Of a stretch of DNA of 64,000 nt, positions 2,213 through 20,844 are shown piece by piece (the first letter of the stretch is position 1; each line of letters starts with the position of its first letter). The notes under the pieces are model-generated. The model ran no database searches, was not told the origin of the DNA, and worked only from the letters and a program-made list of their open reading frames with translations. The stretch spans positions 1,736,001 to 1,800,000 of the forward strand of contig NZ_CP028908.1 of NCBI RefSeq assembly GCF_024181725.1, written 5' to 3'. Source of the stretch: Bradyrhizobium sp. WD16. Its GTDB lineage: Bacteria > Pseudomonadota > Alphaproteobacteria > Rhizobiales > Xanthobacteraceae. The position numbers and the translations under genes are program-made.

Positions 2213-2254
2213 GATCAACTCCTGATCGATTGTCTTCTTTTGTGGGGTCGCGCA

Positions 2255-3595: not shown

Positions 3596-3696
3596 GAATT
3601 CCTCCTTGATAGATACGTTTCCTCACGCGCCGCCTTCGACGCGCGAGGCGCGTCGGCGGTCTTGGTGTTGTCGTGCGGGCGTTGCCCGCAGCTGTT

Positions 3697-4449
3697 TCAG
3701 TAGGTGGCGCGACCGCCGGAGAGGTCGAACGTCGCGCCGGTCGAGAAGGCGCAGTCGTCCGACGACAGCCAGGCGATCAGCGCCGCCGCCTCCTCGACCT
3801 GGAGGAAGCGGTTCATCGGAATCCGCGACAGCATGTAGTCGATGTGCTCCTGCTTCATCTGATCGAAGATTTCGGTCTTGGCGGCCGCCGGGGTCACGCA
3901 GTTGACGAGGATGTTCGAGGTCGCCAGCTCTTTCGCCAGCGACTTGGTCAGCCCGATCAGCCCCGCCTTCGACGACGAATAGTGCGAGGCGTTGGGATTG
4001 CCTTCCTTGCCGGCGATCGAGGCGATGTTGACGATGCGGCCCCAGCCGGTCTTGAGCATTTCCGGCACCACGGCGCGGCAGGTGAGATAGGGCGCGATCA
4101 GGTTGACCTCGACCACCCGCCGCCACACCGCCGGCTCGAGCTGCCACAACGGGCCGTTGCCGCCGGTGATGCCGGCGTTGTTGACGAGGATGTCGAGCTT
4201 GCCGTGGGCGGCGACGGTGGCGCGCGTCGCCTCGCCCACCGCCGCCTCGTCGACGAGGTCGAGGGCGTGAACGGAGACGGCGCCGTGCTCCGCGAGGCGC
4301 GCCCTCGCCTCGTTCAGCCGCTCGCCGTCGACGTCCCACAGCGCCACCCTGGCGCCGGAGGCGAGCATGCGCTGGGCGGCGGCATAGCCGATGCCGCGGG
4401 CGCCGCCGGTGATGACGGCGACGCGGCCGTTGAGATCGATCTGGTTCAT
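3697..4449 (-). CDS. SDR dehydrogenase, probable 2-keto-3-deoxy-L-rhamnonate 4-dehydrogenase (LRA5-like)
   Basis: A classical short-chain dehydrogenase of 250 residues. It has the NAD-binding TGGARGIG at 14-21, NNAG at 90-93, and the catalytic Ser144, Tyr157 and Lys161 (SHYSSSK). In the alternative L-rhamnose pathway described in Sphingomonas, an SDR (LRA5) oxidises 2-keto-3-deoxy-L-rhamnonate at C4 before a FAH-family hydrolase cleaves it. Both genes sit side by side here with a rhamnonate dehydratase. The start MNQIDLNG at 4449 is chosen because the longer frame extends back through the FAH stop codon and lacks homology-like sequence. The gene starts 7 nt after that stop, so translation is probably coupled. 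A fuconate pathway role is possible but less likely given the dehydratase. Confidence 0.82.
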   Translation of the reverse strand: MNQIDLNGRVAVITGGARGIGYAAAQRMLASGARVALWDVDGERLNEARARLAEHGAVSVHALDLVDEAAVGEATRATVAAHGKLDILVNNAGITGGNGPLWQLEPAVWRRVVEVNLIAPYLTCRAVVPEMLKTGWGRIVNIASIAGKEGNPNASHYSSSKAGLIGLTKSLAKELATSNILVNCVTPAAAKTEIFDQMKQEHIDYMLSRIPMNRFLQVEEAAALIAWLSSDDCAFSTGATFDLSGGRATY

Positions 4450-4456
4450 GGTCAGC

Positions 4457-5305
4457 TCACTTGCGGGCGGGAATGGTGGTCTGGCGCTGTTCGCCGAGAC
4501 CGTCGATGGCAAGGCGCATCACCTGGCCGGCCCTGAGATAGACCGGCGGCTTCTGGCCGAGGCCGACGCCGGGGGGCGTGCCGGTGGAGATGATGTCGCC
4601 GGGCTGAAGGCTCATGAAGCGGCTGATGTAGGCGACGAGGTGCGCGACGCCGAAGATCATCGTGCTGGTCGAGCCCATCTGATAGCGGCGGCCGTCGACA
4701 TCGAGCCACATCGCAAGCTTCTGCGGATCGGCGATCTCGTCGGTGGTCACCAGCCAGGGGCCGATCGGGCCGAAGGTGTCGCAGCCTTTGCCCTTGTCCC
4801 AGGTGCCGCCGCGCTCGAGCTGGAAGGCGCGCTCGGAGACGTCGTTGACGACGCAGTAGCCGGCGACATGAGACAGCGCGTCCTGATCGCTGACGTATTT
4901 CGCCGGCCTGCCGATGACGACGCCGAGTTCGACTTCCCAGTCGGTCTTCTCGGCGCCCAGCGGGATCTCGACGTCGTCGTTCGGGCCGCAGATCGCACTG
5001 GTGGCCTTCATGAACAGCACGGGCTCGGTCGGGATCGCCATGCCGGATTCGGCGGCGTGGTCGGAGTAGTTGAGGCCGACGCAGACGAACTTGCCGACAG
5101 AGCCGACGCAGGCCCCCAGCCGCGGCCCGCCGTCGACACGCGGCAGCGAGGCGGGGTCGATCGCCCGCAGCTTCGCCAGATTTTCCGGGAGCAGCGTCTC
5201 GCCGGCGATGTCCGCCACGACGCCGGACAGGTCGCGCAAGGCGCCGCCGGCATCGATCAGGCCGGGCTTCTCGCGGCCGGCTTCGCCATAGCGCAGCAAT
5301 TTCAT
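4457..5305 (-). CDS. FAH-family 2,4-diketo-3-deoxy-L-rhamnonate hydrolase (LRA6-like)
   Basis: The 282-residue product has an N-terminal domain starting MKLLRYGEAGREKPG and a FAH catalytic domain with VCVGLNYSDHAAESG, the acidic metal site in TDWEVELGVVIGRPAKYV, YCVVNDVSERAFQ, GKGCDTFGPIGPWLVT and the closing MSLQPGDIISTGTPPGVG. Members of this subgroup hydrolyse 2,4-diketo-3-deoxy sugar acids; with L-rhamnonate-derived substrate the products are pyruvate and L-lactate. It is the first gene of the operon. AAGGGAGG lies 7 nt before ATG 5305; a longer frame from 5404 would cover the promoter and is rejected. Regulation is probably by the divergent LysR gene. Confidence 0.85.
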   Translation of the reverse strand: MKLLRYGEAGREKPGLIDAGGALRDLSGVVADIAGETLLPENLAKLRAIDPASLPRVDGGPRLGACVGSVGKFVCVGLNYSDHAAESGMAIPTEPVLFMKATSAICGPNDDVEIPLGAEKTDWEVELGVVIGRPAKYVSDQDALSHVAGYCVVNDVSERAFQLERGGTWDKGKGCDTFGPIGPWLVTTDEIADPQKLAMWLDVDGRRYQMGSTSTMIFGVAHLVAYISRFMSLQPGDIISTGTPPGVGLGQKPPVYLRAGQVMRLAIDGLGEQRQTTIPARK

Positions 5306-5421
5306 CGTGTGTCCTCCCTTACGTCTTCGCGTGGCGGACGCGCGTCTCGTCGTCGCGAGACCGGCGGCGCCGCAGTCTTGGAACCTGACTAGAAGAAACG
5401 GCAATTACCGGATAATGAAAG
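5306..5421. promoter_or_regulatory. Divergent control region between rhamnonate operon and LysR regulator
   Basis: This 116-bp gap must hold both promoters. Two dyads stand out: GTCTCG-N6-CGAGAC at 5344-5361 and ATTACCGGATAAT at 5404-5416, directly before the lysR start. LysR regulators usually bind such T-N11-A-like dyads between themselves and their target, so these are candidate operators. No clean -35/-10 pair was assigned. Confidence 0.5.
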
Positions 5422-6396
5422 ATGGTGCTCAGCCAATTCCAAAAGGTGATCGCCTTGAAACCGCTGCCGCCGACCGCGCTGCTCGCCCGGATGCGCTTCA
5501 CCCATCTGCGGCTGCTCGACGTGCTGGGGCGGACCGGCAACATGCACCGCGCCGCCGAGGAGATGCATGTCACCCAGCCGGCGGCGACCAAGATCCTGCA
5601 CCAGCTCGAGGACATCCTCGGCGTCGCGCTGTTCGCGCGCACCTCGCGCGGCATGGCGCCGACCGAGATCGGCCTCGCCGTGGTCGGCTATGCACGGCGA
5701 ACCTTGAGCGACGGCGAGCGCTTCGCCGTCGGCCTCGACAATCTCAAGCGCGGCGGCTACGGCGCGCTGTCGGTCGGCGCCATCATGGCGACGGCGTCGG
5801 ACCTCCTGCCGAGGGCGATCGCCGAGCTCAAGCGCCGGCGGCCGCTGATGACCATCCACCTGCTCGCGGCGACCAGCGACATGCTGATGACGGCGCTGGA
5901 GCGGCGCGAGCTGGAGCTGGTGATCGGCCGGCCCACCGATGGGCGTCATGCCGCCGAATTCGCCTTCGAGCCGCTGTCGAGGGAGGAGCTCTGGCTGTTC
6001 GCCGCCGACACCCATCCGTTCGCCGGGCGGCGCAGGCGCCTCGCCATCGGCGACCTCGCCGGCGCGGCCTGGGTGCGCCAGCCGCCGCCGAGCCCGATGC
6101 GAAATCTCCTCGATGCCATGTTCGTCAAGGCCGGCATCGGCATCCCCGACAATGTCGTCGAGACCACCTCGGTGTTCGCGACGCTTCAACTGGTGCGCCA
6201 CGCCGGCATGATCGCGGTGCTGCCGAAATCCATCGTCGCCGAGGAAGTGCGACGCGGCGGCCTGACCCGCCTGCCGCTGGAGATGGCGGCCGAGCTCGAC
6301 AGCTACGGCATCGTCACGCCCGTTGGCGGCAGCCTCAGCGATAACGCCAAGGAGTTCGTGGGGATCGTCAGGGGGCTGGTGAGGGCGCGGGGGTGA
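5422..6396 (+). CDS. LysR-family regulator, probable activator of the rhamnonate operon
   Basis: A 324-residue LysR protein. The winged helix-turn-helix is MRFTHLRLLDVLGRTGNMHRAAEEMHVTQPAATKILHQLEDILGVALF at roughly 24-71, then a linker helix and a periplasmic-binding-like effector domain (VGAIMATASDLLPRAIAEL onward). It resembles the GbpR/galactose-binding-regulator branch, whose members sense sugars and sugar acids. It is divergent from the rhamnonate operon with a 116-bp gap, so it most likely controls that operon. Its stop lies only 14 bp from the stop of eda on the other strand. A second, partial copy of its C-terminal coding region is found at 15,815-15,957. Confidence 0.85.
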   Translation: MVLSQFQKVIALKPLPPTALLARMRFTHLRLLDVLGRTGNMHRAAEEMHVTQPAATKILHQLEDILGVALFARTSRGMAPTEIGLAVVGYARRTLSDGERFAVGLDNLKRGGYGALSVGAIMATASDLLPRAIAELKRRRPLMTIHLLAATSDMLMTALERRELELVIGRPTDGRHAAEFAFEPLSREELWLFAADTHPFAGRRRRLAIGDLAGAAWVRQPPPSPMRNLLDAMFVKAGIGIPDNVVETTSVFATLQLVRHAGMIAVLPKSIVAEEVRRGGLTRLPLEMAAELDSYGIVTPVGGSLSDNAKEFVGIVRGLVRARG

Positions 6397-6410
6397 GGTG
6401 GAGTCGCGAG

Positions 6411-7070
6411 CTATCGCATGAGCGTTGCGGCAGCGCGGGCAAGCGCCTCGATTTCGTCCCATGCGCCGGCGAGGACGGCGCGGCGCGGCGCAATCCAGGA
6501 GCCGCCGACAGCGACGACATTGGGCTCTGCGAGCCACGCGCGCGCATCCCGTTCGCTGATGCCTCCCGTCGGACAGAAGCGCACCTGCGGAAATGGCCCG
6601 GCCAGCGCACGAATTGCAGAAATCCCCCCGGCAGGAACTGCGGGGAAAAATTTCACGATCCCGAAGCCGCGCGTGACGCACGCCATCAGCTCGGACGCCG
6701 TCTGCACGCCGGGGATGAAGGGGAGTTCGAGCGCGCGCGCCGCGTCGAGCAATTCGGACGTGGCGCCGGGACTGAGCGCAAAGGCCGCTCCCGCGTCGAT
6801 CGATCGCTCGAGGTCTTGCGGCGTCAACACGGTGCCGATGCCGACGATCGCCTCGGGGACCTCGGCGCGGATCGCTCTGGCGGCGTCGAGGCCGGCGGCC
6901 GTTCGCAAGGTGATCTCGATCGCGCGAAGGCCGCCGCGGGACAATGCGCGGGCCAGCGGAACGGCATGCGCCGCATCTTCGATCGTCACGACCGGCACGA
7001 CCGGAGCGAGCGCGAACAGGGATTGAAGGCTGGCGCAGCGGCGTGCCGCCTGGTCGGCGTCGGGGATCAT
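6411..7070 (-). CDS. eda: 2-dehydro-3-deoxy-6-phosphogluconate aldolase
   Basis: A class I aldolase of 219 residues that splits KDPG into pyruvate and glyceraldehyde-3-phosphate. Visible landmarks are PVVPVVTIEDAAHA, the catalytic glutamate in AIEITLRT (Glu52), GIGTVLTPQDLERSIDAGAAFALSPG, and the Schiff-base lysine in GIVKFFPA (Lys140), followed by the phosphate loop CPTGGISERDA. It is the last gene of the nine-gene sugar-acid operon. Its ATG overlaps the kdgK stop (ATGA at 7067-7070), so it should be translated by coupling. It would finish the route from altronate through KDG and KDPG to central metabolism. Confidence 0.93.
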   Translation of the reverse strand: MIPDADQAARRCASLQSLFALAPVVPVVTIEDAAHAVPLARALSRGGLRAIEITLRTAAGLDAARAIRAEVPEAIVGIGTVLTPQDLERSIDAGAAFALSPGATSELLDAARALELPFIPGVQTASELMACVTRGFGIVKFFPAVPAGGISAIRALAGPFPQVRFCPTGGISERDARAWLAEPNVVAVGGSWIAPRRAVLAGAWDEIEALARAAATLMR

Positions 7071-7996
7071 GGGCAGGGGACCTTCCTTTGCAGCTCGGTC
7101 GGCATCGCCTCGCGCGGGATGATCGCGCCGGGATGGCTGATCACCACGCCGGCCAGCCGATGTCCGGCGCGCGCCGCCTCTGGGGGAGCGGCACCGGCAA
7201 TTCGCGCGGCGAGATACGCGGCGTTGAACGAATCGCCGGCTGCCGTTGTGTCGACCGGGTCAATGCGCCGGTCCGGCGCAACCTCCGTCCGGTCGGTCCC
7301 GGCGAACACGATGCAGCCGCGCGCGCCCTGTTTGACGACGATCTCCTGCACGCCGGCGCGATGCAGGCGCGCCGCGCAGGCATCCGCGTCGGCATCGCCG
7401 AACAAGGCCTGTTCGTCTTCCAGCGTCGGCAGGGCGAGATCGACATAGGGCAGAATTTGCCCGAAGGCCCGACGCGCGCTGTCCGCATCCGGCCAGCCGC
7501 GCGGGCGGAAGTTGCCGTCGAAGGCGATGCGCCCGCCCCGGCGGCGCGTCGCCGCGAGCAGTTCGGCGAGCCGTGCGCGGCCGTTGTCGCCATAGAGCGA
7601 CAGGCTGATGCCCGAGAAACAGAGCCAGTCGAATTTCGACAGGCGCTCCAGCGTCGCCTCGTCCGCACGATCGAAGAACTCCCGCGCCGGCGCGCGATCG
7701 CGCCAATAGAGGAAGCTGCGTTCGCCGCGAGCGTCGCGCTCGATCATGTAAAGGCCGGGCATGCGGCCGGAAAGGCACATGACCTCGTCCGTCCGAACGC
7801 CTTCGGCTCGCCATGCGGCGATCATGGAATCGCTCAACGGATCGTTGCCGAGCGCGGTGACATAGGAGACGTCGACGCCGAGCCGCGCCATGTAGAGCGC
7901 GGTATTGAGCGTATCGCCGCCGAAGGCGCGCGCGAACCGGCCGCCCCCGACCTCGGCGAGTTCGACCATGCATTCACCGATCAAGGCGAGTCTCAT
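7067..7996 (-). CDS. kdgK: 2-keto-3-deoxygluconate kinase (PfkB family)
   Basis: It phosphorylates 2-keto-3-deoxygluconate to KDPG with ATP. The 309-residue product has the PfkB fold: N-terminal LALIGECMVEL, the glycine-rich FGGDTLNTALYMARLG at about 25-40, and the C-terminal anion hole/catalytic signature DTTAAGDSFNAAYL, with the catalytic Asp at about 255. The start at 7996 follows GAGAGGGG, 5 nt away; a longer frame from 8395 only runs into the uxaA gene. It is sandwiched between uxaA and eda, which fixes its place in the pathway. Confidence 0.92.
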   Translation of the reverse strand: MRLALIGECMVELAEVGGGRFARAFGGDTLNTALYMARLGVDVSYVTALGNDPLSDSMIAAWRAEGVRTDEVMCLSGRMPGLYMIERDARGERSFLYWRDRAPAREFFDRADEATLERLSKFDWLCFSGISLSLYGDNGRARLAELLAATRRRGGRIAFDGNFRPRGWPDADSARRAFGQILPYVDLALPTLEDEQALFGDADADACAARLHRAGVQEIVVKQGARGCIVFAGTDRTEVAPDRRIDPVDTTAAGDSFNAAYLAARIAGAAPPEAARAGHRLAGVVISHPGAIIPREAMPTELQRKVPCP

Positions 7997-8027
7997 CCGG
8001 CCCCTCTCCGACCACACGCGCCGGCCG

Positions 8028-9548
8028 TTACATCGTCGCGCCGATCTGCCAGGGCACGAACTCGTTCCGGCCAAAGCCAAGCCGCTCGGACTTCGACCGC
8101 TCTCCGGACGCGACGCGCAGGATGGCCTCGAAGATCTCACGCCCTTTCTGCTCGATCGTGACGCCGTCGAGAATGTCGCCGCAATCGATATCCATGTCTT
8201 CCTCCATGCGGCGGTAGAGATCGGAATTGGTGGCGAGCTTGATCGAGGGCGTCGGCTTGCAGCCGTACACCGAGCCGCGGCCGGTCGTGAAACAGAGAAC
8301 ATTGGCGCCGCCGGCGACCTGCCCGGTGGCGGCGACCGGGTCGTAGCCCGGCGTATCCATATAGACGAGGCCGCTGCGGTCGATCCGTTCGGCATAGCGG
8401 TACACGCCGCGCAGCGTCGCTGAGCCTGCCTTGGCGACCGCGCCGAGGGACTTCTCGAGAATGGTGGTCAGGCCGCCCGCCTTGTTGCCGGGGGACGGAT
8501 TGTTGTTGAGCTCCGCGCCCGCGCGCGCCGCATAGGCTTTCCACCACGCGATGATGTCGACGATCTTCTGCCCGACGTCGCGACTCTCGGCACGGCGGGT
8601 CAGGAGATGCTCGGCGCCGAAGATCTCGGGTGTCTCCGAGAGGATCGCCGTGCCGCCTTGCCGCACCAGCATGTCGACGGCGGCGCCCAGAGCCGGGTTC
8701 GCGGTCAGCCCCGAATAGCCGTCCGAGCCGCCACATTGCAGCGCCAGCTTCAGCTCCGAAGCCGGCACCGCCGTGCGCCGGCAGCTGTCGGCGGCGGGCA
8801 GCATGTCACGCAGCTTGGCGACGCCGGCCGCGACCGAACGGCGGGTGCCGCCGCTCTCCTGAATCGTGAGGCTCTGGAACTGCGCGCCTTCGGCGATGCC
8901 ATAGCTCTGCTTGAACCGCGCGATCTGGAGAACCTCGCAGCCGAGACCGACGACGAGGACCGCAGCGAGGTTCGGATGGCTGGCGTAGCCCCAGAGCGTG
9001 CGCGTCAGCAGATCGAAACCCTCGCCCGCGCCGGCCATGCCGCAGCCGGTGCCGTGGTGAAGGGGAATGACGCCGTCGATATTCGGATAGTCGGCCAGCA
9101 CGCCGGACCGCGCGATCTCATCGGCGATGAAATCGACGATGGTCGCCGAACAGTTCACCGAGCTCAGGATGCCGACATAATTGCGGGTGCCGGCCCGGCC
9201 GCCGGGGCGGCGGAATCCCTCGAAGAACGCCGGCGCCTCGTCCGGGCGCAGCGTCTGATCCGGCTGTGCGTCGGTTGCGAAGGCGTAGTCGCGCTCGAAC
9301 TCCTGGAGGACGACGTTATGCTCGTGCACCCAGGCGCCGGCGGGAATGTCCCGCCCGGCAAAGCCGATGACCTGACCGAATTTGCGGATCGGCTGGCCCT
9401 GCGCGATGCCGGCCGCGGCGAGCTTGTGGCCCTTCGGAATCCGCTCCAGCGCATTGACGCCGGCGGCGGCGGCTCCCGGCTGGACGGCGTCGACCGCGAC
9501 GACGACGTTGTCGTCCTGGTGAAGACGCAAGACGCGTGGCGCTGCCAT
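8028..9548 (-). CDS. uxaA: Altronate dehydratase (UxaA family), fused N- and C-terminal domains
   Basis: It dehydrates D-altronate to 2-keto-3-deoxy-D-gluconate. The 506-residue protein has an N-terminal SAF domain (about 1-95, ending DYAFATDAQPDQ) and the large dehydratase domain with GFRRPGGRAGTRNYVGILSSVNCSAT, IPLHHGTGCGMAGAGEGFDLL, VLVVGLGCEV, LALQCGGSDGYSGLTANPALG and VLCFTTGRGSVYGCKPTPSIKL. These cysteine-containing loops are typical of the iron-dependent UxaA/GarD group. The start MAAPRV at 9548 lies 5 nt after the stop of the preceding dehydrogenase; longer frames into that gene are rejected. The family includes galactarate dehydratase, but UxaB and KdgK neighbours favour altronate. 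Confidence 0.9.
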   Translation of the reverse strand: MAAPRVLRLHQDDNVVVAVDAVQPGAAAAGVNALERIPKGHKLAAAGIAQGQPIRKFGQVIGFAGRDIPAGAWVHEHNVVLQEFERDYAFATDAQPDQTLRPDEAPAFFEGFRRPGGRAGTRNYVGILSSVNCSATIVDFIADEIARSGVLADYPNIDGVIPLHHGTGCGMAGAGEGFDLLTRTLWGYASHPNLAAVLVVGLGCEVLQIARFKQSYGIAEGAQFQSLTIQESGGTRRSVAAGVAKLRDMLPAADSCRRTAVPASELKLALQCGGSDGYSGLTANPALGAAVDMLVRQGGTAILSETPEIFGAEHLLTRRAESRDVGQKIVDIIAWWKAYAARAGAELNNNPSPGNKAGGLTTILEKSLGAVAKAGSATLRGVYRYAERIDRSGLVYMDTPGYDPVAATGQVAGGANVLCFTTGRGSVYGCKPTPSIKLATNSDLYRRMEEDMDIDCGDILDGVTIEQKGREIFEAILRVASGERSKSERLGFGRNEFVPWQIGATM

Positions 9549-9553
9549 CGGTG

Positions 9554-10564
9554 TCAGACCTCCAGGATCGCTTTGATGACGCCCGCCTCGGGGCGCAGCC
9601 AGTCGCGGAAGAGCTCCGGACCCGCGCTCAGCGGCCCGCGATGGGTCCGCATCGCCGTCGTCGGCACGCGCCCTGCCTGCATCTGGCGCACCACCTCGGC
9701 GAAGTCGTCGGGCTGCGCATTGCGGCTCGCGAACAGGGTGGTCTCGCGCTTGTGGAACTCGGGGTCGGAAAAGGTGATCTCGGTCGGCACCACGCTGACC
9801 AGCACGTAGCGCCCGCCGTGCCCGACGAAGCCGAAGCCGCGCTGCATGGCGGCCTGATTGCCGGTGCAGTCGATCACCACGTCGAAGAAATCGCCCGCCG
9901 TCGCGGCCGCGGCCTTGCGCTCGGCATCCGCATCCGCCCACAGCAGGGCGTCGGCGCCCAGCCGGTCCTGGGTGAAGGCCAGGCGATCCTCACGCAGGTC
10001 CATGACCGTGACATGCGCGCCGCGCGCCTTGGCAAATACGATGGCGGACATCCCGATCGGGCCGGAGCCGACGACGAGGACGCGGTCGGCCGGGGAGATG
10101 CCGCCGCGCTTCACGCCATGGGCGCCGATGGCCAGGAACTCGATCATCGCCGCATCGTCGAGCGAGGTATCGCCGACCGGAATGACATAGCTCGCCGGAA
10201 CGCAGAGCAGCTCCGCCATGCCGCCGTCCATATGGACGCCGAGCACGCGGATGTTCTGGCATGCGTTGGTGATGCCCTTGCGGCATGCGACGCAGCGCCC
10301 GCAGGACAGGTAGGGGACGATATAGACGTTCTGCCCAGGCTGCAGGCCGCTGCCGGCCGGCGCGGATTCGACGGTGCCGGAGAGCTCGTGACCCATCACC
10401 CGCGGATATTGCAGGAAGGGATGCTTGCCCTGGAAGATATGGAAGTCGGTGCCGCAGATGCCGATGCGGCGGATGCGGACGAGCACCTCGCCCTCGGCCG
10501 GTTGCGGCGGCGGGCGATCGACGACGCGCAGCTGGCCCGGTTCGTCGCAAAGCAGGACTTGCAT
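9554..10564 (-). CDS. Zinc-dependent medium-chain dehydrogenase, probable L-galactonate 5-dehydrogenase (LgoD-like)
   Basis: A 336-residue zinc alcohol dehydrogenase. The catalytic zinc site is Cys37 (GICGTDFH) and His59-Glu60 (VMGHELSG). The structural zinc site is Cys88, Cys91, Cys94 and Cys102 (CGRCVACRKGITNAC). The Rossmann fold is seen in VLVVGSGPIGMSAI. This resembles the RspB/YjjN (LgoD) subgroup that oxidises L-galactonate to D-tagaturonate. With UxaB, UxaA, KdgK and Eda in the same operon, an L-galactonate 5-dehydrogenase would complete the route; this is an inference from context. L-gulonate oxidation is the main alternative but would need mannonate dehydratase, which is absent here. 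Confidence 0.78.
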   Translation of the reverse strand: MQVLLCDEPGQLRVVDRPPPQPAEGEVLVRIRRIGICGTDFHIFQGKHPFLQYPRVMGHELSGTVESAPAGSGLQPGQNVYIVPYLSCGRCVACRKGITNACQNIRVLGVHMDGGMAELLCVPASYVIPVGDTSLDDAAMIEFLAIGAHGVKRGGISPADRVLVVGSGPIGMSAIVFAKARGAHVTVMDLREDRLAFTQDRLGADALLWADADAERKAAAATAGDFFDVVIDCTGNQAAMQRGFGFVGHGGRYVLVSVVPTEITFSDPEFHKRETTLFASRNAQPDDFAEVVRQMQAGRVPTTAMRTHRGPLSAGPELFRDWLRPEAGVIKAILEV

Positions 10565-10663
10565 CGGTTGGGGTCTTTCCTTGATGGTTGTGGGCGTGGC
10601 GCTCCGGCCCGCCGTAAGCGCGGCGGACCAAAGCTCGCTCTGGCTGCGACTTAGGGTCAGGTC

Positions 10664-11452
10664 TCAGGTCAGCATGTCCGCCGGCAGATCCGCGCCGTGG
10701 TACTTCTTGTAGATCGCGTTGAGCTTGCCGTTCTTCAGGTTTTCATGCACCCAGTCGTTGAGCGCCGCCTTGAGCTTGTCGTCGCCCTTCCGGATGCCGA
10801 TCGCATAGGGGAAGGTGCGCATCACGATCTTGGTCTCGAAAGGCACGGGCGGCTTTCGCCCGTTCGCGGTGTTGACGATCTGCGGCGACGTCGCCACGAG
10901 GTCGACCTGGCCGGAGATCATCGCGGTGGTCAGTGTCGCATCGTCGTCGAAGCGCATGATCTGCGCGCCCTGGGCCCGGGCGGTGACCTCCTTGTCGTTG
11001 GTGCTGCCGCGGGTGGTGCCGATGCGCTTGCCGGCGAGGGCGGCGTAGTCCGCGACGGCCTGCCCCTTCGGTCCGGCGACGACGGCCTGGATCACGCCGT
11101 AGGGGTCGGAGAAGTCGATGACCTTGAGCCGTTCCTCGTTGACGCTGAAGCTGGCGATGACCATGTCGGCCTTGCCGGTCAGCAGGAAGGGCACGCGGTT
11201 CGGACTGGTCACCTGCACGATATCCATCGGCATTCCCCAGCTGTCGGCCAGCAGCTGAGCCGTCTCGACATCCGAGCCGGTGGGACGCATCTCGCCGTCG
11301 GTCATGCCGAAGGGCGGTGAGCCGAGGTCGAGCGCGATCATCAGCTTCTTGCGGCCGCGGATCGTGTCCAGCGTATCGGCCAGGGCGGGCGCCGCCAGCG
11401 CGGCGACCGCCATGGCGGACACGCCGCCGGCGAGAAAAGTTCTGCGTTTCAT
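10664..11452 (-). CDS. ABC transporter periplasmic binding protein, PAAT family, with non-amino-acid-like ligand site
   Basis: The product of 262 residues has a Tat-like signal (MKRRTFLAGG then an Ala-rich helix, cleavage near APALA-DT at 26). The rest is an SBP_bac_3 domain: LDLGSPPFGM, ADMVIASFSVNEERLKVIDFSDPYG (Arg108, which in the family binds a carboxylate), GKRIGTTRGSTNDKE and SGQVDLVATSPQ. Amino-acid binding members carry an Asp in the last motif to hold the alpha-amino group; here the place is taken by Thr-Ser (188-189). Together with its place inside a sugar-acid operon, this suggests a hydroxy-acid ligand such as L-galactonate. ATG 11452 follows AGGAGG; an upstream TTG at 11473 overlaps that site and is rejected. 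Confidence 0.85.
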   Translation of the reverse strand: MKRRTFLAGGVSAMAVAALAAPALADTLDTIRGRKKLMIALDLGSPPFGMTDGEMRPTGSDVETAQLLADSWGMPMDIVQVTSPNRVPFLLTGKADMVIASFSVNEERLKVIDFSDPYGVIQAVVAGPKGQAVADYAALAGKRIGTTRGSTNDKEVTARAQGAQIMRFDDDATLTTAMISGQVDLVATSPQIVNTANGRKPPVPFETKIVMRTFPYAIGIRKGDDKLKAALNDWVHENLKNGKLNAIYKKYHGADLPADMLT

Positions 11453-11479
11453 TTGGGGCGTCCTCCTCTTCAAGTTATT

Positions 11480-12208
11480 TCAGAAGTCGTGGCCGATGAA
11501 CTCGCGCAGCTCGGGCGTGCGCGGTGACTCGAGCTCGCAACCGGGCAGGGTTTCCCAGATCCGGCCCTGCCGCATGTAGATGACGGTGTCCGCGACCTTG
11601 CGGGCGAAACTCATCTCGTGCGTGACCAGGATCATGGTCATGCCGCCGCGCGCGAGATCCTCCATCACCTTGAGGACCTCGCCGGTCAGCTGCGGGTCGA
11701 GCGCCGAGGTCACCTCGTCGAACAGCATGACCTGCGGCTGCATCGCCAGGCTGCGTGCGATGGCGACACGCTGCTGCTGCCCGCCGGAGAGCTGCTCGGG
11801 GTAGTGGTCGGCCTTTTCCGCCAGCCCGACCCGCGCGAGCACGTCCAAGGCGAGCTCCCGCGCCTCACGGCGGCCGATCCGCTTCACGCAGGTCGGCGCC
11901 AGCATGATGTTCTGCGCCGCTGTCAAATGCGGGAAGAGGTTGTAGCTCTGGAAGACAATGCCGATCGCCTGGCGCAGCGCCTGCTTGTCCAGCTTGCCGC
12001 TGTGGATCTGGAATCCGCAGACCTCGATGCTGCCCTGCTGGATGGTCTCGAGCGCGTCGATGCAGCGCAGTGCGGTCGACTTGCCCGAGCCGGACTGCCC
12101 GATCAAGGCCACGACCTCGCCACGCCGCACCTCGAAGGAGATGCCGTCGAGCACCTTGTGGGAGCCGAAGCTCTTGTGGACGTTGCTGAGCTTAACGACG
12201 GCCGACAT
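11480..12208 (-). CDS. ABC transporter ATP-binding subunit, PAAT family
   Basis: It energises the importer formed with the two permeases upstream and the binding protein downstream. The 242-residue subunit has Walker [10 protein letters not shown] (37-45), the Q-loop in [14 protein letters not shown], the signature [15 protein letters not shown], Walker [14 protein letters not shown] and the switch histidine in LVTHEM. This is the GlnQ/HisP type. Its start overlaps the end of the preceding permease gene by 17 bp, so translation is likely coupled. The C-terminus is slightly degenerate ([10 protein letters not shown]) but complete. Confidence 0.92.
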
Positions 12209-12845
12209 TGAGCCTCCTCTCGAGCCGGCGGCTCCAGGCCGACAGCGGATAGCAGATGACGAAGTAGAGCGCGGCCACGGTGGCGAAGACGGTGAAGGGC
12301 TGGAACGTCGAGTTGTTGATCAGCTTGCCGGCCTGAGCCAGCTCGACGAAGCCGACGACGGACGCGAGCGAGGTGTTCTTCACGATCTGCACGAGGAAGC
12401 CGACCGTCGGCGCCGTCGCGATCCGCATGGCCTGCGGCAGGATCACCCGCGTCAGCCGGTCCCAGCGCGACAACGCCAGGCACTCGGCGGCTTCCCATTG
12501 GGTCTTCGGCACGGATTCGATGCAGCCGCGCCAGATCTCGCCGAGGAAGCCGGACGAATAGATCATCAGTCCGGCGCCCGCCGCGATCAGGGCGGGAAGC
12601 TGGTCGAAGCCCGCGATCGCCAGACCGAAATAGATCATGAAGAGCAGGATCAGCAGCGGCGTGCCCTGCACGACCTTGATGTAGGCCGAGGCGAGGCCGC
12701 GCAGCAGCGCATTGTCCGAGATCCGCGCCAGCGCGACGGCGAAGCCGAGGAGCCCGCCGCCGAGGAAGGCGATGGCCGACAGCGCGATGGTCCAGCCGGC
12801 GGCGACGACCAGGAACCAGAGATGGTTGGATCCGAAGGTGGGCAT
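12192..12845 (-). CDS. ABC transporter permease subunit, PAAT (HisM/GlnP) family
   Basis: A 217-residue inner-membrane protein with about five helices. It has the EAA-loop signature of polar amino-acid-type permeases ([45 protein letters not shown]) and the preceding [19 protein letters not shown]. The pairing with a second, different permease indicates a heterodimeric channel. It follows the first permease by 9 bp and overlaps the ATPase gene. Confidence 0.9.
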
Positions 12846-12854
12846 GGCGGACCC

Positions 12855-13538
12855 TTACAGCGGCGTGCCGAGCTTGCGGCGGCGGGTGAAGACCAGCATG
12901 CCGAAGCCCCAGAAGGCCCAGCGCACGACGAACGACAGCGCGAGATAGATCAGGCCGACGACGATGTAGGTCTCGAAGCTTCGAAAGGTGTCGGACTGGA
13001 TCCGGTTGGCCACCGCCGTGAGCTCCTCCGCCGAGATCTGCGAGGTGATGGAGGAGGCCAGCATCAACAGCACGTATTGGCTGACGAGCGCGGGATAGAC
13101 GCGCTCGATCGCCGGGCGCAGCACCACGTGCCAATAGATCTGGCGGCGGGAAAGGCCGAGGCACTCGGCCGCCTCGATCTGCGCCTTGTGGACGCTCTCG
13201 ATGCCGGCGCGCATGATCTCGCAGGTATAGGCGACCACGTTGACGACCAGGGCGGCTGCCGCCGCCAGATTGGCGTCGACCCGCAGGCCGAGCACGGCGA
13301 TGCCGAAATAGACCAGGAAGATCTGCACCAGCAGCGGCGTGTTGCGGATCGCCTCGACGTAGCCGCCGACGAGCCGCTTCAGCCAGGGCGGCCCGTCCGC
13401 GCGCGCGATGGCGCAGAGCGCGCCGCCGGCGAAGCCGAGCACGGTGGCGATGGCGGACAGCTGCAGGGTGAGCAGCACGCCGCCGGCGAAGTCCCGCCAG
13501 TAGGGCAGCAGCGCCGAGAAATCGAACTGATAGGTCAC
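12855..13538 (-). CDS. ABC transporter permease subunit, PAAT (HisQ/GlnP) family
   Basis: A 227-residue membrane protein. It shows LLTLQLSAIATVLGFAGG, the YVEAIRNTPLLVQIFLVYFGI segment and the EAA loop CEIMRAGIESVHKAQIEAAECLGLSRRQIYWHVVLRPAIE, standard for the PAAT family. Its ATG overlaps the uxaB stop (ATGA at 13535-13538), showing that the transporter is cotranslated with sugar-acid enzymes and is not a chance neighbour. It forms the second half of the channel with the gene below. Confidence 0.9.
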   Translation of the reverse strand: MTYQFDFSALLPYWRDFAGGVLLTLQLSAIATVLGFAGGALCAIARADGPPWLKRLVGGYVEAIRNTPLLVQIFLVYFGIAVLGLRVDANLAAAAALVVNVVAYTCEIMRAGIESVHKAQIEAAECLGLSRRQIYWHVVLRPAIERVYPALVSQYVLLMLASSITSQISAEELTAVANRIQSDTFRSFETYIVVGLIYLALSFVVRWAFWGFGMLVFTRRRKLGTPL

Positions 13539-14671
13539 GGCCGCCCTCCGGCCGCGTGTCGCGCCACGATGGCCGCGAGCGCCGGCGCCGCGACCGGCGC
13601 GCCGCCCTCACCCACCCAGCTCAGGAAGCCAGCGATCCGCCGCTCGACCTTGGCCGCATGGTTCTGCGCGATGTCGGCGAGGCGATGGGCCAGGAACGGG
13701 TTGAGGAAGCGCTCGAGCGTCGTCGCCACATAGGCCTCCGCCTCGACGCGCAGCCCGCGGGCGGCAAAGCCGGGCACGACCTCGTCGCGATAGACCTGCT
13801 CCAGAGGGGCGCGGATCGCCGGCTGTGCCAGCATCTCGCGAACCGTCTCCGTCGGCGGCCGCGCCTCCTGGAGCCAGAGGTCGGCGAGCACGGTGTGGCC
13901 GAGATTGAGAATGTGAAGCTTCAATCGCTCGAACGGCTCGAGGTCGTCGGCGAGGATGATGCAGGGATGCTCGCACGGCGGCGTCAGGCCGGGACGCCGT
14001 TCGATCACCCAGAGCGCATAAGGTTCGGCGACCGCGCCGATCGGCTCCAGCGCCTCGGACACGATGCGGTCGACCAGCGTGTTGGCCCACAGCACGCCGT
14101 CGCGCAGCCAGTCGAGGAAGCCTTGCGCGGCATCGGCGCGCTTGGCGAGCTCGAGCACTGCAGCCTGCAGGGCGCGGCCGTTCCGGTGCAGCAGTTCGCA
14201 GGGCAGGATGGTCAGGGGACGGCCGCCGGCCTGCCAGCGATGATGAAGCAGCGCGGTCAGCTTGCCGGGGAAGGATGCCGGCGCCGCGCCGGCCAGCAGG
14301 CCGGGACCGAGATCCGCGGCGGCGATGTCGTAGCCGACGTCGCCGGTGTTCGAGACGACGGCGTCGGCCGGCCCGGCGAACAGCGCGCGCAGCTCCGCCC
14401 AATCGGCCGCCGCGGAGAGGCCTTGATCGACGCTGGTGACCGTCACCCGCCGCTCGACCGGCGCGCCATGCTCGACGCCGCGGATGATCACGGGATAGCC
14501 GCCCGGGGCGCCGAAAGCGGCGACACGGCCGGCGCGCGCCGCCGAAGCGGAGGTCTGCACGACGGTGATCGGTCCGACCGCCTGGCCGGCGGCTCGGGCC
14601 TCGTGAACGAACAGGTCGACATGCGCCTGCAGGAAGCGGCTGGTGCCGAACTGGATGATGCGGCCGCTCAT
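13535..14671 (-). CDS. uxaB: Tagaturonate reductase / mannitol dehydrogenase family
   Basis: It would reduce D-tagaturonate to D-altronate with NADH. The 378-residue protein starts RIIQFGTSRFLQAHVDLFVHEA, the nucleotide-binding beginning of polyol-specific long-chain dehydrogenases, and has the catalytic K-x4-N-x2-H motif in LKLHILNLGHT. It is shorter than E. coli UxaB (about 480) and fits the compact subgroup seen in alphaproteobacteria. It is the first gene of the nine-gene operon and faces the GntR regulator. Fructuronate reductase (UxuB) is in the same family; UxaA in the operon supports the tagaturonate assignment. Confidence 0.82.
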   Translation of the reverse strand: MSGRIIQFGTSRFLQAHVDLFVHEARAAGQAVGPITVVQTSASAARAGRVAAFGAPGGYPVIIRGVEHGAPVERRVTVTSVDQGLSAAADWAELRALFAGPADAVVSNTGDVGYDIAAADLGPGLLAGAAPASFPGKLTALLHHRWQAGGRPLTILPCELLHRNGRALQAAVLELAKRADAAQGFLDWLRDGVLWANTLVDRIVSEALEPIGAVAEPYALWVIERRPGLTPPCEHPCIILADDLEPFERLKLHILNLGHTVLADLWLQEARPPTETVREMLAQPAIRAPLEQVYRDEVVPGFAARGLRVEAEAYVATTLERFLNPFLAHRLADIAQNHAAKVERRIAGFLSWVGEGGAPVAAPALAAIVARHAAGGRP

Positions 14672-14748
14672 GCCGCCCCATCCGTCTGCGAACGGGCTAA
14701 ATTGCGCATCGACCCACCTTGATGACCGTCCCTGAGGCCCCTTTGTAT

Positions 14749-14803
14749 TTTATGCACAAAAAACTACCGCTCATGGGCTGTCAAGCGGTTCTTTGTGCAT
14801 AAA
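14749..14803. promoter_or_regulatory. Operator candidate: perfect 12-bp inverted repeat between uxaB operon and GntR gene
   Basis: TTTATGCACAAA at 14749-14760 is repeated in perfect inversion at 14792-14803, with a 31-nt spacer. The spacer holds TTGACA on the minus strand (14784-14779), a good -35 for the operon, although no convincing -10 was found. The arms sit between the divergent gene starts at 14671 and 14871, where a GntR repressor would act. Each arm could also be a separate half-turn site. Confidence 0.7.
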
Positions 14804-14870
14804 TAGACAGGGGATTGCGGCGTGGGTCGCCGTCCCGCAAGGTCGGAACCTTAAGGAAGGCACCACCGGC

Positions 14871-15809
14871 ATGAAGGCGAATACGGTCTACAAGCGCGCC
14901 TATAATGATTGTTTGGCGCTGCTGGCGGCGCGGCCGCTGGGCGAATGGCCCGCTTCCGAGGCCGAGCTGTCCGAGCGGCTGCAGGTCAGCCGCACCACGG
15001 TGCGCGCCGTTCTGGCGACGCTGATCGAGCGGACCATCGTCAAGAAGGACGGACCGCGGCGCCTGCTGTGCCGCCACCCCGGCGAGGACGATTATTTCCC
15101 GGACACGCAGACCGAGACGGTCGCCCGGCTGGTCGAGCGCAAGTTCATGCAATGGGTGCTGCGCGGCGATTGCCGCCCTGGACAGACCGTCAACACCTCA
15201 GAGCTGGCCCGGCAGTTCGGCGCCTCCACCACGGCGGTCCGGGAATTCCTCACCCGCTTCAGCCGGTTCGGGCTGATCAAGCGGCGCGAGAACAGCGGCT
15301 GGATCTTCGCCGGCGTGACGGCGGAATTCGCCAGCGAGATCTACGAGGTCCGCGAGATCTTCGAGCTGCGCTCGGCCCGCAGCTTCATCGAGCTGCCCGA
15401 CCATGCCCCCGCCTGGGCGCAGCTCGACGCGCTCGAGCGCGAGCACCACCGGCTGCTGCGCGAGCTCGACGAGCGCTACAGCGATTTCTCCGGCCTGGAC
15501 GAACGCCTGCACCGGCTCATTCACGACGCCCTGTCCAACCGCTTCATCCGCGAGTTCGACGACGTCATTTCCTTCATCTTTCACTACCACTACCAGTGGG
15601 ACAAGAGCGACGAGAAGGAGCGCAACCGCGTCGCGCTCAGCGAGCACCTCAAATACATCGCCGCGCTCCGTTCGCGCGATCCGCAGCTCGTGGAGAGCGC
15701 GTGTCGCGCGCATCTGCACACCGCCCGCGCCACGCTGCTGCGCTCGATCGACCTGGCGCCGCATCGGGAGATGCAGGCTCCCGGCGCGGCGAACGGCGCG
15801 ATGGCTTGA
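14871..15809 (+). CDS. GntR-family regulator with two winged-helix domains and an FCD effector domain
   Basis: A 312-residue protein. A first helix-turn-helix lies at about 31-52 (ELSERLQVSRTTVRAVLATLIE) and a second, GntR-type winged helix at about 108-145 (ELARQFGASTTAVREFLTRFSRFGLIKRREN). The rest is an FCD domain (about 152-292) with the usual metal/ligand residues Asp210, His214, His259 and His281. FCD regulators bind carboxylic or sugar acids. Two DNA-binding domains in one chain are unusual for GntR proteins, which normally have one. The start at 14871 has AAGGAAGG 10 nt upstream; the frame from 14793 would begin inside the operator. It is divergent from the L-galactonate-type operon and most likely controls it. 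Confidence 0.85.
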   Translation: MKANTVYKRAYNDCLALLAARPLGEWPASEAELSERLQVSRTTVRAVLATLIERTIVKKDGPRRLLCRHPGEDDYFPDTQTETVARLVERKFMQWVLRGDCRPGQTVNTSELARQFGASTTAVREFLTRFSRFGLIKRRENSGWIFAGVTAEFASEIYEVREIFELRSARSFIELPDHAPAWAQLDALEREHHRLLRELDERYSDFSGLDERLHRLIHDALSNRFIREFDDVISFIFHYHYQWDKSDEKERNRVALSEHLKYIAALRSRDPQLVESACRAHLHTARATLLRSIDLAPHREMQAPGAANGAMA

Positions 15810-15814
15810 GCGAG

Positions 15815-15957
15815 GCCGGCATGATCGCGGTGCTACCGAAATCCATCGTCGCCAAGGAAGTCCGCCGCGGCGGCCTGACCCGCCTGCCGCTGGAGATGGC
15901 GGCAGAGGTCGACAGCAGTGGCTTCGTCACCGCGCTCGGCAGCCAGCTCAGCGACAC
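15815..15957 (+). pseudogene. Remnant of a LysR-family gene (C-terminal part)
   Basis: The segment reads AGMIAVLPKSIVAKEVRRG followed by GLTRLPLEMAAEVDSSGF, matching almost residue for residue the C-terminal part of the LysR regulator at 6,202-6,344. By eye about 85% of bases agree over 143 bp, with the first 90 bp closest. It starts 5 bp after the GntR stop, has no start codon or DNA-binding part, and loses similarity at about 15,958. It is a fragment left by duplication or exchange. Confidence 0.75.
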
Positions 15958-16181
15958 CGCGGGTCCGTCTTGGCCTCGATCAACAGGGGCGTGAACTTCT
16001 CGACCTGCGCGTCGGCCGGCGGCTCGCCGAGTTCACGGGTCAGGATGTCCCGCGCCCGGATGTCCAGCGCCTCTTCGTCGTCCGGATCGTCCGGCTCCGC
16101 TGCGAGAGCGGAGATCATGTGGTCGCGCCAACGGCCTGCGTCCGACCGCGTTTGGATTAGCTGCGAGGGGGATTGCGGCAT
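15948..16181 (-). CDS. Small hypothetical protein, probably truncated
   Basis: The 77-residue frame reads MPQSPSQLIQTRSDAGRW and then an acidic, helix-like stretch (AAEPDDPDDEEALDIRARD, ELGEPPADAQVEKFTPL). I do not recognise a family. It begins 34 bp after the autotransporter stop on the same strand. Its last codons and stop lie inside the LysR remnant, so the original 3' end has probably been replaced by rearranged sequence. No strong ribosome site is seen. It may be a non-functional remnant. Confidence 0.35.
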   Translation of the reverse strand: MPQSPSQLIQTRSDAGRWRDHMISALAAEPDDPDDEEALDIRARDILTRELGEPPADAQVEKFTPLLIEAKTDPRCR

Positions 16182-16214: not shown

Positions 16215-19200
16215 CTACCAGGCGTACCTCACCACGCCCTTGCCGGCGTAGCTCTCGGTCACGCTGGAGAACTCGCCCTCGAAGGTAGCGGCGATCGACC
16301 AGCCGCTCAGCCATTTCTTTTCGGCGGCGGCTGTGACCAGCGCGGCGTCGCTTGCCTGCCTTGCGCCGTTGACGACGAAGGCAGCCCCCGGCAGCGCCTG
16401 GAAGGTAGCGCCGATGCCGCGATCGGAATTGTAGTCATGCGCCCAGGCGACGCGGCTGCGCAGCGTGAGGATGCCGTCCTGCATAACGAACGATTTGTCG
16501 CCGCGCAGGCCGAGTTCGCTGCGGCTGCTGGTCACGCTCTTGGCGCCGTAAGCGAGCGCGAAGGTGCTGGCGCCTGCAACGACCGATTCCGCGTAGGCCG
16601 GCAGATCGAACGTGGTGAACTGGCCTGCGGCGTAAGGCGTGATGCCGACCCCTCCCGCGACGGGCGCGACAAAGCGGTAGCCGCCTTCGACACGGCCAGA
16701 CCAGGCATTGGCGTTGAAGCGGGCCCGCAACTGATCGATGCCGGCGATAGTCACCGTGCGATCCGTGGTGACATCCTGCCAGCCGTAAGCAAACGCTCCG
16801 GAGATGTAGGCTGCGCCGACGTTGTGCCGGACGAACGCGCCGGCCTGGAACAGATCGGAGCGCCCGGTCCCGTTGTTGGCCACGCTGAAATTGGTGCCGC
16901 CGCCGGCAAGCGCGAAGCCGGCGATCGTGAACGGCGAGAAGCGGTAATCGGCGCCGACGGCCGTGCCGTAGATCCGCGATGTCGTCGTGTCGGAACCGAC
17001 GGCCGTATTGCCATCGGTGGTCTGCACCCCGCCGAAGCCGGCGGCCCAGACGCTCCAGCGCTGGTCCGGTATCGCGGCGGGAGCCGCCTTGGTGTAGATC
17101 GCCGCCAGCGCATCATTCGGATTGCGCCGGCGCGCATATCCCAGGGCTTGCTCATCGGCGTAGCCATTGGCGTTGCCGCCCGCGCTGGCGCCGTCGCCGC
17201 GGCCGGCGATGAACGGATCGGTCATGATTCCCATGAACTGCGTCATGGCGCCGAACGTGGTCTGCTGCGATCCGGTCGCCGTCTGCCCGGCAGACTGCGA
17301 CAGGCCGTTAGCCGTAAGGTTGGCGTAGACCGCAGGAATGCCGCCGGTAGCGTTGAAGAAATTGGTCAGCGCGTTGCCGACGTTCTGCTGATTGACGTTC
17401 AAGCCGCCGGGAATCGAGAAATTCAGAGCGAGGTTGAGATACGCATTATTGGCATCGTAACTCAGGGTCGGAGTCATGTTCGTCGGCGTGTTCGTGCCGG
17501 TCACCGCGCCGAACGTGCCGTTGATTCCGCCGGTGGCCGTGAGGATGGTGTACTGCTTCTGCACATAGGCTCCGGATGCGAAAGTCGCGCCGACATTGGC
17601 GCCACCCAGCGTCGCCGTACCGGTGACAGTCGCAAACGACGCCGTGGCCGGATTGACCTGGAGCAGATATTGCGCGCCGGCCTGGAAGGCGAGATTGCCG
17701 GTGATGGCCATCGACGAGGTCGGCGTGCCGTTGCCCGGCGCGAACGTCCCGCTGATGGTGCTGTTGGCTCCGGTCACGGCGCCGGCGCCGCTCAGGGAGC
17801 CGAACGTCCGGTTGAAGCCGTTCAAATCCAGCGTCGCTCCGGCACCCACGGTAAAGGCGGTGCTGGCCCCAAACGCGCCGGCGGATCCGGCGCGCAACGT
17901 TCCGCCATTGACGTTGGTCGCGCCCGTATAGGTATTGGTCCCGGAGAGCAGCAAGGTGCCCGCGCCGTTCTTGTTGAGCGTACCGGCTGACGCGCCGTCG
18001 GCAACCACGCCTTGCAGCGTCGTCATGGTCGCGTCGGCAACGTCGATGGTCGACGCGCCGGCGAGCTTGAAGCCGCGGCCGTTGGCGAGCGTCGTCGTCG
18101 CCGTAACCGCCAGCGTGCCGCCGTTCGAAATGACGACGTCATTGGCGACGTTGCCGAGATTGACGGTGCTGGAAATCGAGACCGTACCGGCGCTGATGTT
18201 GACGTTGCCGATAAAGGTATTGGTTCCGGATAGCGTCAGCGTGCCCGAACCGGTCTTGTTGATGGCGGAGTTAATTCCCCCGGCCGTGAGGCCGGTGCCA
18301 CCGATGGTGTTGGCGTAGGTTACGTTGCCGCCGGACACGCCGATATTCGCCAAGACGCCGCTGAGGAAAATGCCGGCCCCCTGCGCCGCGCCCGCCGAGG
18401 TGCCGAACCCATTGATGGCACTTGGGCCCTGTCCGGTACCGGAGCTACCGGCGGCGCCGCCGGTGACGGCGGCGCCCGAGATCGGCGAATCCAGAATGGT
18501 CAGGGTGCCGCCGGTAGCGACGTAGATGGCGCCCCCGTTCGCGGCGCCGCCGTTGCCGCCAGTGCCGCCGTCGGAGCCGGGTCCAGGTCCGCCAGCACCA
18601 CTGGCATTGGTAGCGCCGTCGCCGCCCGTTCCGCCGGAACCACCGTTGGCGTTGCCGGAACCGCCACTGTTATTCGGGGTGTAGGTCGAGCTGTTGGTGG
18701 TTCCCGAACCACCGCCACCGCCACCGCCGTCGCCCAAGGTTCCGCCCGCCGTGCCTGTCGTGCCTTGGCCGCCGGCGTGCCCGCCGGTCCCGCCTGCGCC
18801 GCCGCCGCCGCTGGCGCCGCCATTATTGGCCGCACCGCCGGCGCCGCCATCGCCGCCTTTGACCGGATCGGCGGCAACGTTCTGGGCGCTGCCGCCATTG
18901 CCGCCGGCGCCTCCCGTGGCGGTGTTGCCGGTGAACGTCACCGCCGTCAGGGTGACGTTAGCGCCGCTTCCGACCAGCAGGCCGCCGCCCGCGCCGAGGC
19001 CGCCGCCACCGCCACCGCCCGAGCCGTATGCAAGCCCGCCGCTAAAATAGCCGTTCTGGCCGTTCTGGCCATTACCGCCGATCGCCGCGGTGTTTGTGAT
19101 GGCAAGATTTGAAATGCTCACCGTCGGCGCGTTGGCGCCGTTGACCTGGATTCCCTGAAAGGATGACGCACCGTTGATGGTCTGGCCGTTGCCGGTAATG

Positions 19201-19508: not shown

Positions 19509-19779
19509 GACGGAGCACCCCAGCAATGTGTGATTGTGGCTCGAAAAAGATGTACGCGACGCTCGCAATCCATGCAGACAACTTGAGGGTAATGACTCGC
19601 TTGGCATTCTACTCGATGGCGAGTGAAAAGAGGGGTTCCACGGGCGCTTTGCAAGCCCGGCCCCGGCACTTTGCAAGCCGATGTTGCCGATCAGCAACAA
19701 TCGGCCGGCAACGAGCGGACCGTCGCTGGATCAGGCGCAACTTCCGTTCTGGGTCACGTGCGGACGGCGCCCTGGCAAG

Positions 19780-20677: not shown

Positions 20678-20752
20678 CTAGTGTCCCGTCTCCGAATTAC
20701 CGCTCCATTTGCCTCACCCTCGCACGGTCATTCGGAGACATCGGGACACTAG
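20678..20752. repeat. Palindromic element A, copy 1
   Basis: A 75-bp palindrome bounded by CTAG. The left arm CTAGTGTCCCGTCTCCGAAT pairs with a right arm ATTCGGAGA-CATCGGGACACTAG, which has three extra bases (ATC) bulged. The central loop carries GCTCCATTTGCCTCACCC. The plus strand is open in one frame (VSRLRITAPFASPSHGHSET) up to the closing TAG. Confidence 0.9.
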
Positions 20753-20765
20753 CAAAATCAAAAAG

Positions 20766-20844
20766 CTAGTGTGGCTCATGTCTCGCAATTGCCTGCGAGA
20801 GACTGGCCGCAAAGTCGGTAGGCAATTGCGAGACGCCACACTAG
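20766..20844. repeat. Palindromic element B, copy 1
   Basis: A 79-bp palindrome, also bounded by CTAG. The left arm is CTAGTGTGGC-TCAT-GTCTCGCAATTGCCT and the right arm is its complement without the TCAT bulge. It is joined to element A by the linker CAAAATCAAAAAG and shares its last CTAG with the next A copy. Confidence 0.9.

Follow-up and report, generated by a model that had tools for sequence, protein, structure and literature searches.

In Escherichia coli, L-galactonate is degraded by the Lgo pathway, whose substrate is taken up by LgoT, annotated as a galactonate:H+ symporter, and whose genes lie far apart on the chromosome (lgoD at 4.60, uxaB at 1.61 and uxaA at 3.24 Mb). We analysed a stretch of 64,000 nucleotides from Bradyrhizobium sp. 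WD16 (contig NZ_CP028908.1, positions 1,736,001 to 1,800,000; hereafter the window), in which nine genes of the minus strand, at window positions 6411-14671, and a divergent regulator gene probably constitute a complete, regulated operon for the catabolism of L-galactonate, including an ATP-binding cassette (ABC) importer of the polar amino acid type (PAAT). The reactions predicted for its enzymes are those of the E. coli pathway, and the products of the dehydrogenase and regulator genes match E. coli LgoD and LgoR at 42% and 36%, respectively. The contrast with E. coli, where uptake relies on the major facilitator superfamily (MFS) and the genes are scattered, had been drawn in an earlier reading of this DNA (the first-pass annotation), and it holds.

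Loci closer in layout have been described in other bacteria. The L-galactonate loci of Halomonas and Chromohalobacter contain lgoD, uxaA, and uxaB or uxaF, together with a tripartite ATP-independent periplasmic (TRAP) importer; according to the accessible part of PMC5507952, they thus unite a dedicated binding-protein importer and pathway genes, as the window does, but the importer is of the TRAP and not of the PAAT ABC type, and the genes are joined with those for L-fuconate. For lguABCDEF of Luteolibacter, the enzymes that lead from L-galactonate to pyruvate have been demonstrated biochemically, and most of the genes are in one cluster. Here again altronate dehydratase, tagaturonate reductase, L-galactonate dehydrogenase and the aldolase acting on 2-keto-3-deoxy-6-phosphogluconate (KDPG) are encoded together, whereas the pathway starts from L-glucose or L-galactose, the kinase for 2-keto-3-deoxygluconate (KDG) is encoded elsewhere, and the word "transporter" is absent from the main text of the article (PMC12632266, seen in part). 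The L-gulonate operon of Haemophilus (GulPQM, GulD, UxuB, UxuA, KdgK, KdgA), which is TRAP-fed and has been tested, has the same logic of five steps and likewise brings an importer of its own; unlike the window, it uses TRAP and the mannonate branch (UxuB/UxuA), and the WD16 genome has no UxuA match (PMC5788505, in the part available). The available text of PMC5969746 describes the lgn operon of Paracoccus, for L-gluconate, as an analogue of the L-galactonate pathway of E. coli.

The importer of the window has the same domain make-up and fold as the PAAT systems GlnHPQ, HisJQMP and TcyJLN, from which it differs by a serine in place of the aspartate facing the alpha-amino group, by an extra arginine and by its place in a sugar-acid operon. 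As for the Paracoccus operon, its lettering (lgnA-I) presumably means nine genes, and that lgnA-D encode an importer is our guess rather than a result. Among the open-licence papers listed by our searches, which did not extend to subscription papers, we recognised none that reports uptake of L-galactonate or sugar acids by an importer of the PAAT type. The first-pass annotation called the operon self-contained and considered its built-in PAAT-type importer to be the unusual part; this stands for the importer type, while the self-contained arrangement has precedents. Since self-contained L-galactonate loci with a dedicated TRAP importer are already in print (PMC5507952, as far as its accessible part goes), what is new is confined to the type of importer: the novelty consists of the PAAT-type importer and the signature of its pocket, while the pathway itself is known.

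Gene content, conservation and regulation

Nine minus-strand open reading frames fill 6411-14671, and the family-level identity of all nine is backed by profile scans, in agreement with the catabolic and importer genes that had been listed earlier on this strand. The gene uxaB (13535-14671) encodes a short, UxaB-type putative tagaturonate reductase of 378 aa, from the mannitol dehydrogenase family, and its stop codon overlaps the GTG start of permease 1 (12855-13538; PF00528; TIGR01726, 90 bits for a cut-off of 42). Then come permease 2 (12192-12845; PF00528; TIGR01726, 85 bits, cut-off 42), a GlnQ-like ATPase (11480-12208), which matches GlnQ of E. coli at 53% and scores 306 bits with NF007027, short of the 379 required, and the solute-binding protein (10664-11473; SBP_bac_3, 105 bits), which starts at TTG 11473 or ATG 11452. 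The binding-protein domain, the two permeases above the TIGR01726 cut-off and an ATPase nearest GlnQ bear out the assignment of the importer to the PAAT family. The enzymes encoded downstream are an LgoD-like, zinc-dependent putative L-galactonate 5-dehydrogenase (9554-10564; ADH_N and ADH_zinc_N), a UxaA-type putative D-altronate dehydratase (8028-9548, ATG at 9548 being the likeliest start; GD_AH_C 349 bits, GD_AH_second 154 bits, SAF 27 bits), a KdgK-type putative KDG kinase of the PfkB family (7067-7996; best NCBIfam model NF052444, 355 bits, below the cut-off of 400) and the KDPG aldolase Eda (6411-7070; PF01081 224 bits; TIGR01182 240 bits, cut-off 156; NF004325 260 bits, cut-off 241). 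The widest intergenic gap is 99 bp (10565-10663), within the limit of about 100 bp given previously, and all other neighbours are closer or overlap. ATGA couplings had been reported at both ends of the operon: the one between kdgK and eda is there, while the overlap between uxaB and the permease gene reads GTGA.

We propose that the importer would take up L-galactonate at the expense of ATP, and that the LgoD-like dehydrogenase, UxaB, UxaA, KdgK and Eda would convert it to pyruvate as in E. coli. The dehydrogenase is nearest LgoD, then RspB (32%), among the few E. coli proteins compared, and the stretch FSDPEFHK.ETT...SRNA.P.DFA is common to it and LgoD, not RspB, in the alignment. UxaB matches E. 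coli UxaB at 30% and UxuB at 27%; its best NCBIfam model is that of tagaturonate reductase (NF002969, 207 bits for a cut-off of 359). The alignment shows that the C-terminal ~100 residues of E. coli UxaB have no counterpart in it, and that the Lys, Asn and His of its stretch KLHILNLGH are common to E. coli UxaB and UxuB. The genome contains a second full-length Eda-type aldolase match (G000:C1:732210-732788, 223 bits), so that the eda of the operon is not the only one.

Using UxaB alone as a query, we collected 31 loci from named genomes, and we defined as the core the seven genes for UxaB, both permeases, the ATPase, the binding protein, the zinc dehydrogenase and UxaA. The whole core is present in 14 of these loci, and the fact that seven genes occur together in loci found by only one of them means that the operon is not a chance assembly. 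The idea that the importer is a chance neighbour was rejected on the same conservation. A search for the same gene order in other genomes, which the first-pass annotation had proposed, was positive: in 12 of the 31 loci the genes have the order of the window and the regulator gene adjoins uxaB (Acetobacteraceae, 1; Xanthobacter, 2; Ancylobacter, 5; Azospirillum, 1; Rhizobium, 1; Ferranicluibacter, 1; another Rhizobiales bacterium, 1). In the other two core loci, from Acidovorax and from a record named Pantoea sp. 18069, the gene order is shifted. The core is also found in G218 (locus L119), a genome from the same taxonomic order as WD16, and on a Diaphorobacter plasmid. The remaining 17 loci do not have the complete set; in some of them the contig breaks off (L032, L053), some have another importer, and L061 is a weak partial match. 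The window and L033 have both kdgK and eda after the core, their order being swapped in L033; in L054 and L057, eda is accompanied by a weak kinase match (28%). The operon is thus real and widespread, and its pathway was already known.

The regulator gene (14871-15809, plus strand) encodes an LgoR-like protein of the GntR/FCD type. Its match to E. coli LgoR covers 277 aa (E 7e-57) and is co-linear over the full length, while ExuR and UxuR, the other regulators in the small set compared, give no match at 1e-3. We collected 21 intergenic regions from organisms other than E. coli, six of which were left out beforehand (L037, L038, L044, L047, L049 and L121; mostly near copies, which L049 is not). 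In the 15 regions used, a motif search returned the palindrome GTTTTTTATacATAAAAAAC with a total score of 554, whereas none of ten shuffled sets scored above 241; a palindromic form was required of the real and the shuffled sets alike, and the controls, simple shuffles, were searched with fewer restarts. Paired sites 43-45 bp apart are present in 12 of the 15 regions, and a single good site is present in each of L039, L120 and L123; since several regions come from close relatives, these counts are not counts of independent events. In the window, the operator-like dyads are GTATTTTATGCACAAAAAAC (14745-14764, score 26.9) and, 43 bp away, GTTCTTTGTGCATAAATAGA (14788-14807, score 18.2). The motif was not found in the lgoR/lgoD region of E. 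coli (best score 5.2). We suggest that the divergent LgoR-like protein would control both promoters, probably by acting on two dyads about 44 bp apart; its binding and the direction of its control are inferred.

The binding-protein pocket and the relatives of the importer

The binding protein keeps the arginine of position 77 of HisJ/LAO (Arg115), which we take to hold the carboxylate, but has a serine (Ser196) instead of the aspartate of position 161, presumably the residue that holds the alpha-amino group; it has in addition an arginine at HisJ position 118 (Arg155). A search gave 87 matches to this protein, of which 2 short ones were dropped and the other 85 collapsed to 71 distinct sequences, and one side of a tree branch with a support of 86/94 defines a clade of 56 members, window protein included. 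All 56 have the added arginine and the carboxylate arginine, the latter being invariant in a 15-row alignment, and none has the aspartate, which is replaced by S, A, G, V or P. By contrast, all 7 amino-acid binders examined from E. coli and 6 of the 8 other family members from the WD16 genome have the aspartate; the added arginine is absent from the 7 and from the 8 alike, and the full signature occurs in none of the 15 non-clade family members examined. The grip on the amino group therefore appears to be lost, and this change argues against amino acids as the ligand. Structure matches (VIA-align) are to amino-acid-type and related binders, including the opine binders SocA and OccJ, and say nothing about the ligand.

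We inspected 20 loci of the clade, chosen by similarity (8 of the 40 plasmid matches listed, and 12 genome stretches). In 19 of them the neighbours are genes of sugar or sugar-acid catabolism, namely a UxaA-family gene (9 loci), rpiB (7), an MR/MLE gene (2) or FAH and short-chain dehydrogenase/reductase (SDR) genes (1); the twentieth stops at a contig end. A sugar kinase or a HIBADH-type dehydrogenase gene is also present in six of the seven rpiB loci. By the same test, the 8 other family members of the WD16 genome have no UxaA, rpiB or ribokinase neighbours; one of them (L151) is near a partial aldehyde dehydrogenase (ALDH) match.

We propose that the members of this clade would be re-tuned for sugar acids, the alpha-amino aspartate being gone, the carboxylate arginine kept and a second arginine present. 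It is rather likely, judging from residues and gene neighbours, that one shared pocket change re-tuned the whole of this PAAT-family clade in Proteobacteria, whose members would serve several catabolic modules: L-galactonate, UxaA-family with DapA and ALDH, UxaA-family with AraD1, and rpiB-kinase sets. The permeases and ATPases of clade loci bear amino-acid transporter names in public records. If the two-residue signature does predict the substrate class, many binders filed as amino-acid type could be re-assigned from their sequence.

Other arrangements were seen around relatives of the importer. Cousins in L112, L116, L118, L124-L126 and L129 accompany GntR, a HIBADH-type dehydrogenase, rpiB and ribokinase, not every part being found in L125 and L126. 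In L120 and L121, a related importer and regulator are found with a different zinc dehydrogenase, an SDR, an RraA-like protein and a shorter, perhaps split, UxaA-family dehydratase. An L-fuconate partner had been suspected in G266 from FAH and SDR matches; the idea was dropped because closer identification gave a 2-isopropylmalate-synthase-like enzyme, an SDR and an FAH-like protein that no NCBIfam model matches at 1e-50.

The substrate and competing readings

L-galactonate is the substrate best supported by the comparisons. The choice made in the first-pass annotation is now backed by the LgoD-like enzyme, the LgoR-like regulator, an LgoT homologue in the importer slot of a relative and the lack of UxaC, UxuA and UxaE matches. 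The relative is the Methylobacterium locus L039, where the regulator (70%), uxaB and the zinc dehydrogenase are followed by an MFS protein; among three proteins compared, LgoT is its best match (34% over 413 aa, E 2e-70), and ExuT matches at 31% over 303 aa (E 3e-44). In L046 and L055, a sugar-type ABC importer (Peripla_BP_4/BPD_transp_2) adjoins the zinc dehydrogenase and uxaB. That importers are swapped within a fixed enzyme setting suggests that what they transport is the pathway's substrate. In L050, a gene of the alpha-L-fucosidase family (7703-8977), behind a LacI-type regulator, directly precedes the zinc dehydrogenase and uxaB; L-galactose or L-fucose glycosides might be the source there.

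In E. coli, UxaB and UxaA serve galacturonate. The dehydrogenase GulD of Haemophilus serves L-gulonate (PMC5788505, in the part available). The operon could thus be read as a pathway for either acid. This we judge highly improbable. In the WD16 genome there is no match to UxaC (PF02614), UxuA (PF03786; ManD-type dehydratases were outside the search) or UxaE, whereas the same searches were positive in 7, 5 and 1 of 14 control genomes, respectively; tagaturonate should therefore not arise from galacturonate via UxaC, and a UxuA route for mannonate is lacking. In a galacturonate pathway, moreover, the C5 dehydrogenase would have no evident role. Even less credible is an importer that is merely co-located and carries an amino acid or an opine-like amino-acid conjugate, as its family and its resemblance to SocA and OccJ would have it: the aspartate is missing throughout the clade, family scans of the nine genes reveal neither a deaminase nor a deglycase, and the importer accompanies the zinc dehydrogenase and uxaB in 14 of the 31 loci, some others having MFS or sugar-type ABC importers in its stead. 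An lgn-type pathway for L-gluconate is unlikely, although somewhat less so. LguD of Luteolibacter acts on L-gluconate about as well as on L-galactonate (PMC12632266, Table 1), and the lgn operon has been likened to the E. coli L-galactonate pathway (PMC5969746), as far as the available parts of both articles go; the relationship to LgoD and LgoR and the LgoT homologue in the importer slot speak for L-galactonate, however, and Luteolibacter needs a separate epimerase for L-gluconate (PMC12632266, same part).

The alternative that deserves most attention, as a tentative possibility that overlaps with the explanation we prefer, is a broad carrier of L-sugar acids (L-galactonate, L-fuconate, L-rhamnonate) shared with the L-rhamnonate dehydratase cluster next to the operon. 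TRAP importers with dual specificity for L-fuconate and L-galactonate have been published (PMC5507952, in its accessible part), and related importers accompany other enzyme sets in G198 and G266. Yet the L-rhamnonate cluster has an MFS carrier of its own and is free of the operon in 6 of 6 inspected genomes of the same family.

Several observations weigh against an operon and importer devoted to L-galactonate. UxaB, KdgK and UxaA each fall short of the curated cut-off of the NCBIfam model closest to them, and UxaA is slightly nearer E. coli GarD (39%) than E. coli UxaA (35%), with 408 bits for a cut-off of 731 in the galactarate model. The rankings of LgoR, LgoD and LgoT were made against a handful of E. 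coli proteins. L045 has the regulator, uxaB, the zinc dehydrogenase and uxaA, and no importer was recognised beside them. Closely related importers and regulators are found in G266 and G198/G150 with other enzymes and without uxaB, so the importer may serve more than one acid. The shared context of the clade partly reflects shared descent, since the 20 loci were picked by binding-protein similarity, and an aspartate-bearing binder of the WD16 genome (L146) is near an FAH-type gene (65%).

L-galactonate also arises in plants. It is formed from pectin in the fungal galacturonate pathway, according to the available part of PMC6353982. A dedicated ATP-driven importer would allow bacteria to scavenge it at low concentration.

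Flanking DNA and origin of the block

The first-pass annotation described the operon correctly apart from small points, but without the divergent regulator, the operator-like dyads, the wide conservation and a flank that suggests insertion. The L-rhamnonate cluster adjoins the operon upstream (1025-6396) and encodes a dehydratase (767 bits, cut-off 393), an MFS carrier, an SDR, an FAH hydrolase (447/500 bits) and a LysR regulator. The last ~157 bp of the intact LysR gene (left copy, 6194-6347, plus strand) are repeated directly after the GntR gene (15807-15960, plus strand), as a partial direct repeat that is 85% identical over 157 bp and marks the right border of the block. The position of 6397-15806 between two LysR ends points to insertion, or to duplication followed by loss; from this layout, the block looks inserted.

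The LysR of the cluster is matched at E 1e-60 or better in 10 of 149 same-family genomes, WD16 included. The MFS-SDR-FAH-LysR order is kept in 6 of 6 same-family genomes fetched, and the DNA similarity extends into the dehydratase gene; no operon genes lie beside the cluster in these six, the only exception being generic matches to ABC ATPases, several kb away, in two of the genomes. An order-wide draw listed 18 same-family genomes, none of which has a match to this UxaB at 1e-30; overall, 46 of 397 genomes have one (WD16 included).

Beyond the right border, positions 16215-19700 of the minus strand hold an open reading frame of 1161 aa, glycine-rich with repeat-like stretches and autotransporter-like by eye, and a 169-bp tandem copy, 96% identical, lies at 20678-20846 and 20841-21009.

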